Source: Acanthamoeba castellanii str. Neff (Eukaryota > Discosea > Longamoebia > Acanthamoebidae). From it: 25,988 nt of DNA. The notes beneath the pieces were generated by a model. The model was not told the DNA's origin and did no database searches. It saw only the letters and a list, made by a program, of their open reading frames with translations. The stretch covers positions 588,922-614,909 of the forward strand of contig NW_004457380.1 of the NCBI RefSeq assembly GCF_000313135.1. Direction: 5' to 3'. Of the stretch, positions 7,223 to 22,300 are shown piece by piece; within the stretch, counting starts at the first letter, position 1, and each line of letters starts with the position of its first letter. The position numbers were made by a program, and so were the translations under genes.

Positions 7223-10878
<3,656 letters not shown>

Positions 10879-11263: not shown

Positions 11264-13520
11264 ATGCGCTCTGCCAACACCAACAACACACAGCTTCTCC
11301 AGTGGGTGGAGAAGGTAAAGCAGCTCACCAAGCCCGCCAACGTCCACTGGTGTGATGGCTCAGGTACTTGCCCACACACATGCTCATAAAGTGTGTAGCC
11401 TGTTCTTCTTCTTCTTCTTATTCTATTCTTCCAACCTGAATAGACCAGGAATACGCCACGTTGTGCGAGGAGCTGGTGAAGAAGGGCACCTTCGTGCGCC
11501 TCAATGAGAAGTTCGTGGGCAAGAACAGCTTCCTCGCTCGCACGGACGAGCGCGACGTAGCGCGTCACGAGAGCCGCATGTTCATCTGCACGAAGGTGGA
11601 GGAGGACATCGGCCATGGCCGCAACTGGGCTCAACAGACCGAGATGACCGACGTACGCCACAGTCTTCACCCACTACTCGCAACATTATTACTTTTAATT
11701 CTAATTATTCTTTTCTTATCTGTTTTCCTTTTCCTGTTTCTCTGTGTAGCGACTGGCCAAGCTGCTGGCGGGCAGCATGGAGGGCCGCACCATGTACGTC
11801 GTGCCGTTCGCCATGGGGCCGCCCGGCTCGGCCCTGGCCCGCTACGGCGTCCAAATCACCGACCACGCCTACGTCGCCGCCTCGCTCTCTCTGGTCGTCC
11901 GCACCGGCACCGACGTCCTCCAGCACCTCGGCAATGGCGGTACGCGCTTCGTGAACACACACACGACACACACACAACACACGCACACACACACACGACT
12001 CACCGTGTCTCGCAATCGCAATGCAACAGAGTTTGAGAAGTGTCTGCACTCGGTGGGTGTGCCGTTGGGCGGCAGCGCTGCTGACGTGGCGTGGCCATGC
12101 AACATCGATGACCACCACCTGGCCTTCTTCCCCGAGCACGGCCACGGCACCGACGCCGACGCGCTGGGCTCGCCCCGCTTCGTCTCGTTCGGCAGCCTCT
12201 ACGGCGGCAACTCGCTGCTGGCCCAGAAGTGGTTCGGCCTCGACTGGGCCTCGGTGCTGGCCCACCGCGAGGGCTGGATGGCCGAGCACTGCGCCGTTGT
12301 CACCCTGACCGACTCCGAGGACCGCAAGTTCCACATCGCCGCCATCTTCCCCTCGGCCTGCGGCAAGTCCTCGTTCGCGCTTCAAATTCCCACCATTCCT
12401 GGTACACACGCGCACACAACGCACCGCACGACACGCATGGACCACTGATCCTAAGCTATGTATGGAATGTGTGTGCGCAGGCTGGACGGTGCGTTGCGTG
12501 TCGGAGAACATGGCGTGGCTGCGCCAGGGAGCGGACGGCCGCCTGTACGCGACCAACCCCGAGTCGGGCTTCTTCGGCGTGGCGACCGGCACCTCGCAGT
12601 TCAACAACCTCTCGCTGATGGTCGCCATGCGCAAGGGCACCAACATCTTCGTCAACGCCGCGCTCACGCCCGAGGGCGACGTATGGTGGGAGGGCAAGAC
12701 CAAGGAGGCGCCCGCCCAGCTCAAGGACTGGCGCGGCCAGGCCTGGACCCCGGCCAGCGCCACCCCCGCGGCGCACCCCAACGCGCGCTACACATTCCCC
12801 GCCACCAACTGCCCCGTCATGGACGAGGCCTGGAGGTTCGGCGCCACCCCTCTCAAATTCTAGAATGAATGTTGGAATGTCTCATTGCTCATTCCGTTCA
12901 TTCCAATCTGTATAGCTCGCCCAACGGAGTGCCGATCGACGCGTTCCTGCTGGGCGGCCGCCGGAGCACGACCGTGCCGCTCGTCGCGCAGGCGCTCAGC
13001 TGGGAGCACGGCGTGTTCCTCGGCGCGGTGCTCTCGTCGGAAACGACCCACGCCACCGACGGCGCGACGGGCGTGGCCAAGCGCGACCCGTTCGCATTCC
13101 GCTCATTCCTGGGCTACCGCCTGGGCGACTACCTCCAGCACTGGGGCGATATGGGCCAGCGCCTGGGCCGCCACGCCCCGCTCGTGTTCCAGGTCAACTT
13201 CTTCCGCCGCGATAGCGCCGCCGACGGGGCCTACCTGTGGCCCGGCTTTGGCGACAACGCGCGGGTGCTCAAGTGGGTGTGCCAGCGCGTGCGCGGCGAG
13301 GTGGGCGCCCGCCGTACCGCCGTCGGCCTGGTGCCGCACGCGCGCGATCTGGACCTCACCGGGCTCGACCTGTCGCGCGAGGTTGTGGAGAACAAGCTGC
13401 TGGCCGTCAACGCCCACGAGTGGATGGAGGAGTGCAAGGACATGAAGAAGTTCCTCGGCGGCGTCGAGTCGCTGCCCGGCTTTGTCGCGTCGCAGCTCAC
13501 CACGCTCGAGAAGAGCCTGC
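11264..13520 (+). other. N-terminal PEPCK domain, degenerate active site
   Basis: This domain covers about residues 1-605. It keeps the family frame: DVARHESR (the Arg that contacts substrate), [13 protein letters not shown] (metal-ligand His), P-loop [10 protein letters not shown] with Lys279, GGRRS, and VNFFRRD with [11 protein letters not shown] (guanine pocket). It departs at the kinase-2 motif, where CVGDDIAW of active enzymes reads CVSENMAW (Ser298-Glu299-Asn300), losing the Asp that binds the catalytic metal. GKKCFALR reads AQKWFGLD, and the P-loop TN pair reads SS. There is a 2-residue insertion before the guanine loop. I infer reduced or absent catalysis but probable nucleotide binding. 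Confidence 0.85.
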
Positions 13521-15650
13521 AGCTGGAGCTCACCAAGGTGCCGACGACGGACCGGGCGATCCTCGACTGGGTCGAGAGCACGGTCCGGCTGTGCAAGCCC
13601 GACGCCGTGCGCTGGTGCGACGGGAGCGAGGAGGAGTACCACGAGCTGTGCCAGCTGCTGTGCGAGAAGGAAACGTTCGTCAAGCTCAACGAGAGCCTCC
13701 GGCCCAACTCCTACCTGGCCCGCTCGACCGAGGACGACGTCGCCCGCGTCGAAGACCGCACCTTCATCTGCTCCACCAAGAAAGAAGGTAACACGTGTGT
13801 GTGTCGTGTGTGTCGTGTGGTTCTTGAAACTCACACAACACATGCAACACACAAAGATGCGGGTCCGACCAACAACTGGATGGAGCCGGCGGAGATGAAG
13901 GAGAAGCTCAACAAACTGTACGACGGGTGCATGAAGGGCCGCACGATGTACATCATCCCCTTCTGCATGGGTCCGCTCAACAGCCGCGTGTCCAAGTACG
14001 GCATCGAGATCACCGACTCGGCCTACGTCGTCGTCAACATGAAGATCATGACCCGCATGGGCATCGAGGTGCTCCACTACATCGAGCAGAACGCCCAGCG
14101 CGGCGACCCCAAGCCCTACCTCCCCTGCCTCCACTCGGTCGGCAAGCCGCTCCAAGAAGGTAAGCGCACATTCCATCGCCACCTAGAATGTGTGTGGAAT
14201 GCATGTGGAATGCTCACACCGCACACGCACGCAACAGGTGAGAAGGACGTGCGCTGGCCGTCGAACCCGCAGAACAAGTACATCACGCACTTCCCCGAGG
14301 ACCCGTCGGTCATGTCGTTCGGCAGCGGCTACGGCGGCAACGCGCTGCTGGGCAAGAAGTGCTTCGCCCTCCGCATCGCGTCGACCATGGCCCGGCGCGA
14401 GGGATGGCTCGCCGAGCACTGCCTCATCCTGGGCCTCACCTCGCCCGAGGGCAAGAAGTACTACATCGCCGCCGCGTTCCCGTCGGCCTGCGGCAAGACC
14501 AACCTCGCCATGCTCGTGCCCACCATCCCCGGCTGGAAGGTGCGCTGCGTGGGCGACGACATCGCGTGGATGTACGTGGGCGAGGACGGCCGCCTCTACG
14601 GCGTCAACCCCGAGCGCGGCTACTTTGGCGTCGCGCCGGGCACCTCCGACTACACCAACCAATCGGCCATCCAGACCATGCGCTCCAACAGCCTCTTCAC
14701 CAACGTCGCACTCACCCCCGAAGGTACGCATTATAGTAATATATACTCTTCGACATAGTATCAAGATATAAACTGACTCAATATGTGACGATGGCAGGTG
14801 ACGTGTGGTGGGAGGGCAAGTCGAAGGAGCTGCCGCCGGTGCTCGAAGACTGGACCTACAAGCAGTGGACGCCCGACTGCGGCCGCAAGGCGGCCCACCC
14901 CAACGCGCGCTACACGACGCCCGCCGCGCAGTGCCCCGTGATCGATCCCGAGTGGGAGAACCCGCGCGGCGTGCCCATCTCGGCCATCATCTTCGGCGGC
15001 CGCCGGTCGACCATGATCCCGCTCATCTACGAGTCCTTCGACTGGCAGCACGGCACCTTCCTCGGCTCCGTCTGCTCGTCCGAGACCACCGCCGCTGCCG
15101 CCGGTCAAGTCGGCGTCGTCCGCAGGTACGCAACCGCACACATGCATGCAACACACAGCACACGACACACAACTAACAGCACGACACGCACATGTGTTAA
15201 TATAACAGGGATCCGTTTGCGATGTTGCCCTTCTGCGGGTACAACATGGCGGACTACTGGCAGCACTGGCTCGACGTGGGCGCGGCGCTGGGCGACAAGG
15301 CGCCCAAGGTGTTCTACGTGAACTGGTTCCGCAAGGACGCCAAGGGCCGGTGGCTGTGGCCCGGCTTCGGCGAGAACTCGCGCGTGCTCAAGTGGGTGTG
15401 CGAGATGATCGACGGTGTGGGCGCCCACCGCGACACGCCGATCGGGCGCGTGCCGACCGAAGACGCGCTCGACCTGATGGGCCTCGACGTCGCGCCCGCC
15501 GACGTGCACGAGCTGCTGCGCGTCGACAGCGACGAGTGGAAGCCCGAGGTGGCCGACATCCGCAAGTTCTACGCCACCTTCGGCGACAAGCTCCCGGCCG
15601 AGCTGCGCCGCCAGGTCGACGAGCTCGAGAAGCGGCTCTCGGCGCAATAG
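11264..15650 (+). CDS. PCK: Tandem double-domain phosphoenolpyruvate carboxykinase (GTP type)
   Basis: GTP-type PEPCK converts oxaloacetate plus GTP to phosphoenolpyruvate, GDP and CO2, a control point of gluconeogenesis and glyceroneogenesis. Exons: 11264-11363, 11444-11652, 11750-11939, 12030-12401, 12481-12835, 12916-13787, 13857-14159, 14238-14723, 14798-15125, 15209-15650. All phases agree and give 1218 residues, twice the family's usual 600-640. Two full PEPCK domains follow each other; the junction falls inside exon 6 (872 nt, no stop). The 12836-12915 intron removes an in-frame TAG at 12861-12863; its donor is GTTCGG. The ATG at 11264 precedes [23 protein letters not shown], a normal PEPCK N-terminus. 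I see no signal or transit peptide, so the enzyme is probably cytosolic. The two halves are described separately below. Confidence 0.93.
11944..12001. repeat. ACACACGAC/CA-rich tract in PEPCK intron 3
   Basis: The CA-rich run with ACACGAC units sits a few bases after the GTACGC donor and is confined to intron 11940-12029. Confidence 0.75.
13530..15650 (+). other. C-terminal PEPCK domain, apparently catalytic
   Basis: This domain covers about residues 612-1218, starting near [17 protein letters not shown]. All hallmark sites are intact: [25 protein letters not shown] (metal-ligand Lys), LAEHC (metal-ligand His), P-loop [12 protein letters not shown] with Lys887, CVGDDIAWM with Asp907-Asp908, [16 protein letters not shown], and VNWFRKD with [10 protein letters not shown] for guanine stacking. 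It ends in a helical tail ([15 protein letters not shown]). It is predicted to carry the PEPCK activity of the fused protein. Confidence 0.9.
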
Positions 15651-19372: not shown

Positions 19373-22300
19373 TCAGGTGTATTTGTGAATCAGCTCGCGC
19401 AACAACTCTCGTCGCGTGCGGCGGAAGGGGACCGAGAACTGCTGCGCGTTCATCGCCTTCACCTCCGCGCTGATCACTGCCGCGTTGATAAGTGGTGGTG
19501 GGGGTGGGGGTTGAGCACTCGATCATTCTTTGGTTTGCGGCGGAGCGGAAGAACCAGGAGAGGGGGGTGGGGTACGTTTGGTGAGGAGGAATTCGTGGAA
19601 GTGCTCGTCCTTGTCGAAGAGGGCCGGATAGGGCAGGTAGGGCAGGTTGGGATGCACGCCCAGCTTGCACGAGAACCCCACCCTACGCACACATGATGCA
19701 CGCAGTCCAGCGGACAGTCAGACACACCACACGACACAGTCGCACCGTCGCACACGCCGCACGACACATGCACCGAACCGGTATTTGTCGCCTTCGGGCT
19801 GAACCACGCAGAAGACGTGGTTGAACTGCGAGGCGATGTGCTCCGGCGAGAAGGGGATCTTGCCGCCGTCCCGGAACACCACCATCACCACGTCGTTCCC
19901 CAGGTGCCGCTTTCGCTCCACCTGATGCAGCCCCCCCGCGTGTGCCGTGAGCCTTCTTTCTGCAAACACACCGCACACGCACACGACAGCACACACATGC
20001 GCACACGCACAGTTGCACACGCACAGTTGCACACGCACACGCACACGCACCTGCTGTTTGTCGTCCTCGGTGAAGGGGATGTAGGTGGAGACGTGGAACA
20101 TCACCTCCCACCCCTTGTGCTGCGTGTAGATGCTGTGCGTGCCCGTCAGGTCGGCTGCGGCAGTGTGTGTCGTGTGTGTTGTGTGTTGTGTATGTGTGTG
20201 TGGTGTGTGTGTGTTAAGTTCAACGCGTGCGTGGTGTGTGGTGGAGTGTGTGCGATTCGCCGGCGTACTGTGGACGTTGAGTCCTGCTCGGTATCGGTTC
20301 CATCCCTTTAGCACGACCTTGTCCCCGAGATGCCCCAAAAATTCCTCAAATGCCGCACTTCCCGTTCCTATCCCCGCATCCGCATCGTCAGCTGCGTGTG
20401 TGCGGTGTCGTTGGTCGTGTCGTGTCGTGTCGTGTTGCGTACTGTTGTTGTACATGTCGTTCTCGTCGTATTGGCCGTGGCTGGCGTAGAGTACGCCGAT
20501 CTTGTAGCCCCGGATGGACATCTTCTGTTCGTAGTGCACCAGGTTCTCCGACAGCGAATTGCCCGGCCACGTCGACGCTCCCCTGCCATCATTGGTCGGC
20601 CCCCAATTAATTGCGTGTGCGGTGGTGCGTGTGCGGTGGTGCGTATGTGGTGATGAGTGTGTGTAGGTGGTGCGTGTGCGGTGGGGAGGTGGTGCGTGTG
20701 GGTGGCTGGGGCGTACCTCGCTGAGACGCGCAGTGTGTCCATGTCCACGGCGCTGTGTGAAGAGCTCGGCGATGGGATTGCCAACGAGCGGGTCGCTGTG
20801 CAAGTGGTACGTAAGTTACACTCAGCACTTGGCCAGCTCCGCCACCACACATATCACCACACACGACGCATGACACACACGACACACGACACACGACACA
20901 CGACACATGACACACAAACTGTGCGTGCGTGCGTGCGCGTGCGATATATTACCTTGCCGGATGGTGTCGCCAGCGAGGTTGTGTGGCGAGTCGGCTTCGG
21001 TGGCGGCGGGTTGTTGTTCGTTGGGGTCGGCCCCGTACTTTTTGTCGCGGATCTCGAGCAGCTTGGCGTCCTGGAGCTGCGGCATGGCCTGCCTGAGGCC
21101 CTGCACCCGTCCCTTCTTCGTGTCGACCGATGTCGCGACCAGCAGCCGCTCATCGCCCTTGAGAAACGCAACAAGGAATGAGCGAAAAAGACAAAGAACG
21201 AATGCGAGAAAGAAAGAAAGCGACAAAGAACGAAAAACGCCAATGGGGAAGAGAGGGTGTACGGAGATGGTGCGGACGATGGCGCGGTAGACGAACTCCG
21301 GCCGCCGAGCGGTCAGTGAGTTCCGCTTCTTGCCCCGGGTCTCGATGGATATGATCATTGGTCGGTCGAGATCGTCAGTCACCGCGTAGTGCTCGAGTTC
21401 TGGCCAAACGAGGTCAGGCACCGTGTGCCGTGTGCCGTGTGCCGTGTGCCGTGTGCCGTGTGCCGTGTGCCGTGTGCCGTGTGCCGTGTGCCGTGTGCCG
21501 TGTGCTGTGTGCTGCTGTTATGGTGTGTCGTGTGGCGGTGTACCGATGTCGGCCGGTTCGTGGAGGTAGACCCGGTAGTAGGCGATGTTCTTGGGCAGCT
21601 GCCACGTGAATCCGAGGTCGACGGCGTCCTGCTCGCCGCCCAGTTCGCGGTAGAAGCCCGGAATGTCCGCCACGAGCTCGTCTTCCGCCTCAGCGTCGGG
21701 AGGCAGCACGCGCTGCAACATTCCAAAAATGCCAGAGGGTTACACGACACTTTCTTCGTTGCCTGGAATGTTGGAATGTGTGACGAACCTTGGGCCACAC
21801 TCGCTTTGCCAGATCCTTGGCGTTGGCCCAGTCGGGATAGGGGTTTTCGTCCAGTACCCCGTCATTGACCACGGCCACGCCCAAGCTGTGTGTGTGTGTG
21901 TGTGTGTGTGTGTCGTGTCGTGTCGTGTCGTGTATCGTGTCGTGTGTCGTGTGTCGTGTGTCGTGTGTCGTGTGTCGTGTGTCGTGTGTCGTGTGTCGTG
22001 TGTCGTGTGTCGTGTGTCGTGTGTCGTGTGTCGTGTGTCGTGTGTCGTGTGTCGTGTCGTGTGTCGTGTGTCGTGTGTGTGTGTGAGAGGTACTCCAGAA
22101 GTCGTTGTGCTGGAGCGTACACTTCCGTGGAGGTGACGCGCGTGGAGGAAGTCTTCGCGATCAGCCGATCCTTGAGCTTGCGGCCCGACAAGGCCTTGGG
22201 CAACCGGGCCGTGAATGTGGTCAGCTCTCGCGACATCTGAGAGATGAAAGAGCACACACTGATGCGTCAGTGCACTTCACTTGAGTGTGCCGTGTTTGAG

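Follow-up and report, generated by a model that had tools for sequence, protein, structure and literature searches.

A tandem GTP-type PEPCK in Acanthamoeba castellanii with an intact second unit and a likely impaired first unit

Introduction

According to one review, known GTP-dependent phosphoenolpyruvate carboxykinases (GTP-PEPCKs, EC 4.1.1.32) are single units of ~600-620 residues, mostly monomeric, and are not under allosteric control. Here we describe a protein of Acanthamoeba castellanii in which, unlike in these single-unit enzymes, two such units are joined. Both of its halves match over near full length the GTP-PEPCK family, to which rat PCK1 and the enzymes of M. tuberculosis and C. 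glutamicum belong, with an active site that is intact in unit 2 and lacks the metal-ligand Asp in unit 1. A duplicated enzyme of sugar metabolism with one active and one regulatory half has a precedent in the tandem hexokinases of vertebrates, whose N-terminal half is inactive and regulatory. The likeness would be one of analogy only, as hexokinases are unrelated to PEPCK in both fold and reaction. In total size the A. castellanii tandem is similar to PPi-dependent PEPCK (EC 4.1.1.38; Entamoeba, Propionibacterium), an enzyme of ~130 kDa. The PPi- and GTP-dependent enzymes are evolutionarily unrelated according to the review; other authors are reported to assign them a common ancestor and similar structures.

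Results

The window, i.e. the whole stretch of DNA analysed, comprises 25,988 nt of A. castellanii str. Neff (GCF_000313135.1, NW_004457380.1, positions 588,922 to 614,909, forward strand). Numbered within it, the locus is composed of:

11264..15650, + strand, whole tandem PEPCK coding region: 10 exons, 1218 aa (spliced model, Pfam domains matched twice, database protein P0008)
11264..13549, + strand, first unit (residues 1-620), covering exons 1-5 and the initial portion of exon 6: complete PEPCK fold, metal site altered
12916..13787, + strand, exon 6: end of unit 1, ~17-residue linker and start of unit 2, no stop
13550..15650, + strand, second unit, residues 621-1218: full PEPCK, active site intact

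An earlier note on this DNA had claimed that ten exons join in one frame and that exon 6 runs without a stop from the first domain into the second. An independent rebuild of the gene reproduced both, with exons 1-5 at 11264-11363, 11444-11652, 11750-11939, 12030-12401 and 12481-12835, and exons 6-10 at 12916-13787, 13857-14159, 14238-14723, 14798-15125 and 15209-15650. All nine introns measure 69-97 bp and follow the GT..AG rule, and the spliced coding sequence of 3657 nt is in frame, carries its sole stop at the end and yields 1218 aa. The frame of exon 6 is open, as it is in 36 of 20000 mononucleotide shuffles of this exon. P0008, an intron-free database protein (source 'lgn', 3839 bp contig), is identical to the spliced protein at 1040/1044 residues, one of the four mismatches being its own start codon. 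It spans both units and is gap-free over the sites of introns 4-9, including the exon 5/6 and 6/7 joints, and a joined two-unit mRNA therefore very probably exists. Introns 1-3 lie outside P0008 and are placed by splice sites and homology only.

It is hardly credible that two adjacent genes or transcripts have been read as one, or that the layout is an artefact of assembly or gene model: exon 6 is stop-free through the joint and P0008 spans it, the halves are only 50% identical, and the same layout recurs in other records, e.g. P0017. The crossing of the joint by P0008 led us to reject mis-joined neighbours, and the 50% identity rules out an assembly duplication of one copy. What speaks for such a reading is that introns 1-3 are outside any intron-free sequence found, and that an isoform of the second unit only is possible, if translation starts at an internal Met close to where unit 1 ends. 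The two-PEPCK architecture of the protein is solid.

Unit 1 alone (residues 1-620) matches Pfam PEPCK_N at 13-244 and PEPCK_GTP at 249-608, and unit 2, in the numbering of the joined protein, matches PEPCK_N at 626-853 and PEPCK_GTP at 857-1214 (230.5-550 bits across both halves; cut-off 23.8). NCBIfam names each half 'phosphoenolpyruvate carboxykinase (GTP)', the scores of 737.7 and 947.7 bits lying above the cut-off (504). The domain search proposed in the earlier note has thus been run with Pfam and found each domain twice, and its claim of two full GTP-type PEPCKs in one frame holds. With two units and 1218 aa, the protein exceeds the single unit of ~600-640 aa typical of GTP-PEPCK. Its two units are identical at 305/611 positions (50%). 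Each half matches 23 distinct PDB sequences; every one is called PEPCK and has a name that mentions GTP. Identity as a PPi-dependent PEPCK is not supported, given that the family matches are to GTP-PEPCK and that none of the 23 PDB sequences per half is of PPi type. ATP-dependent PEPCK was likewise not supported, the PEPCK_ATP family (PF01293) being unmatched in the tandem protein, and a search of the A. castellanii genome for PF01293 found none. A fold search confirmed the PEPCK fold, with one unit per alignment only (TM to target 0.96 for 4wl8). In the AlphaFold model of the relative P0020 both units are well folded (mean pLDDT 87.1); at a pTM of 0.57 the model does not confidently predict how the halves are placed relative to each other, and the domain arrangement of this model was not trusted.

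Active sites were compared by alignment to rat PCK1 numbering at 25 sites, with a consensus taken from 205 single-unit PEPCKs. Two codon pairs mark the difference between the units:

12504..12509, + strand, codons GAG AAC = E299 N300 of unit 1, where rat PCK1 has the Asp-Asp pair D310-D311
14555..14560, + strand, codons GAC GAC = D907 D908 of unit 2, intact Asp-Asp pair

K244, H264 and D311, which we take to be the PEPCK metal ligands, are complete in unit 2; in unit 1, K244 and H264 are present and the metal-ligand Asp (D311) is Asn. The Lys adjoining the metal-ligand Lys is Gln in unit 1, whose departures in full are K243Q, T291S, D310E, D311N, W516F and F525Y. Unit 2 departs from the consensus at a single site (F525W), at which Trp is common among single-unit PEPCKs (71/205). 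The P-loop FPSACGK(T/S) occurs in both units, as GKS in unit 1 and GKT in unit 2. The guanine site (W516, F517, F525, F530, N533) reads WFWFN in unit 2 and FFYFN in unit 1, the changes being conservative. The oxaloacetate (OAA)/PEP contacts R87, Y235, G237, N403 and R405, as listed in PMC4631375, are present in both units. The altered active site of unit 1 is absent from the earlier reading of this gene.

These residues make a catalytic impairment of unit 1 likely. The earlier note had proposed a covalent PEPCK-PEPCK dimer; the joining of units stands, but two working enzymes are not what the residues suggest, and owing to D311N and K243Q in unit 1 the protein would be better read as an impaired PEPCK fused to an active one. 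Weak or altered metal use by unit 1 is possible because K244 and H264 are kept.

Asn311 and the loss of K243 recur in a group of eight first units that includes that of A. castellanii, defined by a first unit with N311 and without K243, an intact second unit and first units forming one branch; the group was delimited once the table and tree were known, and its member P0123 is a 453-aa fragment with the first unit only. Position 311 is Asp in 205/205 single-unit PEPCKs and Asn in 8/8 of these first units; position 243 is Lys in 204/205 and 0/8, respectively. The seven known partner second units retain both residues, and among the first units K244 is kept in 8/8 and H264 in 7/8. This distribution speaks against a reading in which both units are active, Asn311 being tolerated or altering metal or substrate preference, and the benefit of joining lies in dosage, stability or proximity and not in control. 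We consider that reading unlikely, even with K244, H264, R87, Y235, G237, S286, the P-loop GK, N403, R405, R436 and N533 all kept in unit 1. In its favour, joined units need not degenerate: in two chytrid triples, five of six units agree with the single-unit consensus throughout the 25 sites, and the sixth differs only by F530Y.

Among the relatives, P0017 (1225 aa) has the two-unit layout and aligns with 60% identity at 100% query coverage. Its first unit is 53% identical to that of A. castellanii and its second unit 68%, and this greater divergence of unit 1 would fit a decaying, functionless leftover. Such decay is very unlikely, however, since D311 and K243 are lost within an open frame in 8/8 related first units, a pattern that holds at 38-53% identity to the A. 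castellanii first unit (five related first units) as well as at 68-72% (P0123). Tentatively, loss of D311 to Asn together with loss of K243 may be ancestral and conserved in first units of this kind.

Pocket residues are unequally preserved. The eight first units keep 38/38 readable OAA/PEP contacts, 111/143 GTP contacts (78%) and 763/1132 other positions conserved in single-unit PEPCKs (67%); the seven partner units keep 35/35, 123/126 and 1016/1071, respectively. Substrate sensing by the first units would hence be better supported than nucleotide sensing, which is less supported because GTP contacts are hardly better kept than other conserved positions. Partial conservation beyond the active site is also what might be expected if unit 1 were devoid of ligand sensing and acted only as a structural or binding platform (e.g. 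for dimerisation or a partner protein), yet a pure scaffold would not need the fully kept OAA/PEP contacts, and we regard this reading, too, as improbable.

In the phylogenetic tree the eight Asn-type first units occupy one side of a branch (support 100/99). Their branches are long, so that support for the grouping could be inflated by long-branch attraction; in a reduced tree, with the longest rows removed and the Asp-Asp motif masked in 35/40 rows, five first units were still grouped (100/98). A recent duplication within the A. castellanii gene is ruled out, the AU test rejecting a pairing of its two units in the full (p-AU 7.8e-56) and in the reduced tree (p-AU 3.4e-59). By alignment, unit 1 (5 introns), unit 2 (4) and the paralogue (6) share no intron position. 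A clade of A. castellanii, P0017 and P0123 units only, which had been defined with the tree already in view, was also rejected (p-AU 0.0015). The best reading is that the tandem PEPCK is old. One origin for twelve degenerate units, i.e. the eight first units plus P0018_2, P0019_1, P0021_2 and P0023_2, was not rejected (p-AU 0.128), and the substitution patterns of these two degenerate kinds differ.

Joined PEPCKs are more widespread. Among the 120 relatives listed of 724 matches, at least 25 carry two or more PEPCK units, each no shorter than 400 residues; database PEPCKs comprise two units, three, or parts of four, with triples in chytrids and red algae. P0002 (Nowakowskiella), P0003 (Cladochytrium), P0006 (Porphyridium purpureum), P0005 and P0001 are built of head-to-tail units as in A. 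castellanii, but possess three or more instead of two. Their units form one branch (29 rows, 96/96) with the A. castellanii second unit outside, and a further branch (94/91) unites the PEPCKs of three or more units with PEPCKs of bacteria and of mitochondrial type, to the exclusion of the A. castellanii kind. In view of these two branches, a separate origin of these proteins is possible. Ten other last units of multi-unit PEPCKs have lost K244 rather than D311, unlike the A. castellanii first unit, and this loss, mostly accompanied by loss of H264, looks separate from D311N.

Where their source names them, multi-unit PEPCKs bear generic or automatic-looking names. A profile search built on nine doubles found no further multi-unit protein; it missed P0010 and P0025 and is hence not exhaustive. 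No description of joined PEPCK units was found among the titles and abstract openings listed from open-licence literature. Within that scope the earlier note's view of an architecture not known to be described stands, but the arrangement is not unique to the A. castellanii genome. In a scan of viral contigs, eight loci each gave a match of ~1.7-1.9 kb, equal to one unit, within the contig stretches examined; with one unit per locus in these stretches, a viral origin of the tandem was discarded.

Discussion

Our main reading, to which we assign a probability of about 0.5, is that A. castellanii possesses an old tandem PEPCK whose first half is impaired and probably ligand-sensing or structural, and whose second half is active. 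The gene would give rise to one ~130 kDa protein of two GTP-type PEPCK units. Unit 2 (621-1218) is most likely the one that catalyses the reaction (oxaloacetate + GTP -> PEP + CO2 + GDP), because its checked catalytic residues are kept. Unit 1 (1-620) is most likely a catalytically impaired, ligand-binding regulatory or structural half, as the metal-ligand Asp and the neighbouring Lys are gone and the fold, P-loop and OAA/PEP contacts are kept. We infer that substrate, perhaps also nucleotide, bound by unit 1 may alter how the lid or the domains of the active half move. The protein is probably cytosolic, because the sole other PEPCK gene found in the A. castellanii genome, a single-unit paralogue on C176, has a mitochondrion-like leader (MLYPQAVRRWLASSSSS).

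Extended to the family, a still more tentative reading is that concatenated GTP-PEPCKs of two to four units form an undescribed group in which one unit, deprived of its metal site and retaining its pocket, may have become a substrate-sensing pseudoenzyme half. For annotators, 'PEPCK' models of 1200-1850 residues may be real. GTP-PEPCK is a textbook enzyme, and a fusion of impaired and intact units with a conserved pocket would provide a direct test of evolved allosteric control; the tandem PEPCK may also serve as a model for the origin of metabolic pseudoenzymes. If this reading is true, a gluconeogenic GTP-PEPCK would have acquired a built-in, substrate-sensing pseudoenzyme half.

A single gene encodes two joined PEPCK units

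The window is carried on a 1.03 Mb contig of a genome comprising 38.4 Mb in 250 contigs. Rebuilt from its splice sites, the tandem PEPCK gene consists of ten exons with 3657 coding bases, yielding 1218 residues and no internal stops; its ends are the same as those given in the earlier note. All nine introns are 69–97 bp long with GT..AG borders and a G+C content of 0.456, and the coding sequence has GC3 values of 0.924 for the first half and 0.955 for the second half. Intron 3 (11940–12029) spans 90 bases, a length divisible by three, and is open in frame; if it were retained, the protein would gain 30 residues with no stop introduced. Neighboring genes are distinct from the tandem gene: the upstream gamma-glutamyltranspeptidase-like frame stops at 10878 and the next downstream frame starts past 15900.

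Genes in the window and the PEPCK paralogue
Window 9263-10878, same strand as the PEPCK gene and just upstream: gamma-glutamyltranspeptidase-like gene pieces (Pfam G_glu_transpept; last piece 36.4 bits, above the cut-off of 27; earlier piece 24.5 bits, below it)
Window 11264-15650, plus strand: tandem PEPCK gene
Window 19721-20815, minus strand: pieces of a Rap/ran-GAP-like gene (Pfam Rap_GAP, E 1.7e-34)
G000:C176:3905-6541, minus strand: single-unit PEPCK gene (L009), seven exons; sole other PEPCK gene found (counts are lower bounds)

The two PEPCK domains previously read in this one gene were recovered by Pfam, which matches the N-terminal and the C-terminal PEPCK domain twice each, leaving a linker of ~17 residues (609–625) between the matches of the two units, and NCBIfam assigns both halves to GTP-type PEPCK. 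First and second unit (residues 1–620 and 621–1218) are 50% identical, and in our alignment no intron position is common to the two units, nor to either of them and the C176 paralogue.

A joined transcript is supported by the database protein P0008 (1044 residues), which comes from a contig of 3839 bases with the source "lgn", presumably a public-read assembly. P0008 is identical to the spliced tandem protein at 1040 of 1044 residues, its own start codon being one of the four differences, and spans the sites of introns 4–9 gap-free (introns 1–3 fall outside it). Its source sequence therefore lacked those six introns and contained both units. This is the pattern that spliced mRNA would give, and P0008 is the strongest independent support for a single joined transcript. 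It could also derive from a processed gene copy, yet two genome searches gave just two PEPCK loci, the tandem gene and the C176 single-unit gene, these counts being lower bounds.

The metal site is altered in the first unit

The catalytic Mn is presumably liganded by D311, K244 and H264 (rat PCK1 numbering). Both units were aligned to rat PCK1 and compared at 25 active-site positions, with nucleotide and substrate contact residues taken from PMC4631375, which locates D311 in the active site. The sole departure of the second unit from the single-unit consensus is Trp at F525, a residue frequent in normal PEPCKs (71 of 205 single-unit rows among the matches listed). Six departures are found in the first unit: K243Q, T291S, D310E, D311N, W516F and F525Y. 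Among the same matches, single-unit PEPCKs have Asp at 311 in 205/205 and Lys at 243 in 204/205; this set comprises the single-unit rows listed in the protein searches after removal of the repeated-piece rows P0029, P0041 and P0077 and of P0123, which was placed in the first-unit group. With neither the ligand Asp nor the Lys adjacent to K244, the first unit is probably catalytically impaired.

Asn311-type first units are conserved

Eight first units form one group: that of the window, those of the database proteins P0017, P0016, P0020, P0022, P0024 and P0025, and P0123, a fragment in which the first unit alone is seen. Asn occupies position 311 in all eight and K243 is absent from all; readable oxaloacetate/PEP contacts are retained in 38 of 38 cases, and the P-loop Lys in 8/8. 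The substrate pocket of the first unit is under constraint. The seven partner units, i.e., the second units of such proteins, retain 186 of 189 active-site cells.

In a 58-row tree, a branch supported at 100/99 separates the eight first units from the other rows. Five of them remain once the longest rows are left out, and these still group (100/98) when 35 of the 40 rows have their Asp-Asp motif masked; long branches call for caution with all tree results. Constraining the window's two units to be each other's kin costs 185 log-likelihood units (p-AU 7.8e-56) and was rejected. As these units are not sisters, the duplication predates the split from the lineage of P0017 and others. The window's second unit is placed with P0017_2 (second unit of P0017), the database protein P0216 and other partner units, their branching order not being resolved. 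Units of three-unit proteins form a separate branch of 29 rows (96/96). A further branch with 94/91 support joins them to PEPCKs of bacterial and mitochondrial type and does not include the window's second unit; a separate origin of these triples is thus possible. A single origin of all degenerate units was not rejected (p-AU 0.128).

Multi-unit PEPCKs occur in other organisms

A whole-protein search with the tandem protein scored 7991 candidates, and the best 120 of 724 matches were examined. Among these, at least 25 proteins (P0001–P0025) carry two or more PEPCK units of at least 400 residues each, and P0026, P0028, P0039 and P0085 carry pieces of two units, one piece being shorter than 400 residues. 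The number of independent genes is lower, since the names of P0011 and P0014 mark them as isoforms from a single transcript cluster and P0008 represents the tandem gene itself. A second search, using a profile of nine doubles, yielded no additional multi-unit PEPCK among the matches listed; as P0010 and P0025, both already known, were absent from its list, neither search is exhaustive. Multi-unit PEPCKs are present in public sequence collections, some under generic names, apparently without discussion as far as the literature searches show: no description of joined PEPCK units was found among the matches listed in the open-licence papers searched.

Named sources of three-unit PEPCKs are the chytrids Nowakowskiella and Cladochytrium and the red alga Porphyridium. 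P0002, P0003, P0004, P0006 and P0007, with chytrid fungi and a red alga as named sources, consist of three GTP-PEPCK units arranged head-to-tail, and P0005 has three full units plus a partial fourth. The active site is intact in the six units of two chytrid triples except for one F530Y.

Ten last units of other multi-unit PEPCKs, chosen as degenerate (P0001, P0009, P0011, P0015, P0018, P0021, P0023, P0026, P0028 and P0039), have lost K244 in 10/10 and H264 in 9/10 and kept D311 in 9/10. Judged from the aligned residues, this is a different route of metal-site loss than that of Asn311-type first units. In P0005 and P0011 the first unit, too, is heavily degenerate.

Proposed roles of the tandem and single-unit enzymes

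Known GTP-PEPCKs are mostly monomers, the characterised archaeal enzyme being a tetramer, and are not under allosteric control according to one review; a second likewise describes the GTP type as monomeric. Catalysis in the tandem enzyme would most likely be carried out by the second unit. The first unit may serve as a sensor, oxaloacetate or PEP bound there affecting the adjoining second unit, a role that its constrained substrate pocket suits. In the grouped first units, 78% of GTP contacts are kept, compared with 67% at the other conserved positions; the case for nucleotide sensing is therefore weaker than that for substrate sensing. A predicted model of P0020, which is 55% identical to the tandem protein across 99% of it, has two well-folded units (pLDDT 87.1) and leaves the relative arrangement of the halves unfixed (pTM 0.57).

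In the 58-row tree, the C176 PEPCK falls into one group (100/96) together with rat PCK1, P0038 and the Planoprotostelium protein P0098. Its leader, MLYPQAVRRWLASSSSS, with Arg and a run of Ser, resembles a mitochondrial presequence by eye, and the tandem protein has no leader of this kind. An ATP-type PEPCK was not found in the genome. Given the mitochondrial-looking leader on the C176 protein and none on the tandem protein, it is plausible that A. castellanii divides the roles between a single-unit PEPCK in mitochondria and a tandem PEPCK in the cytosol.
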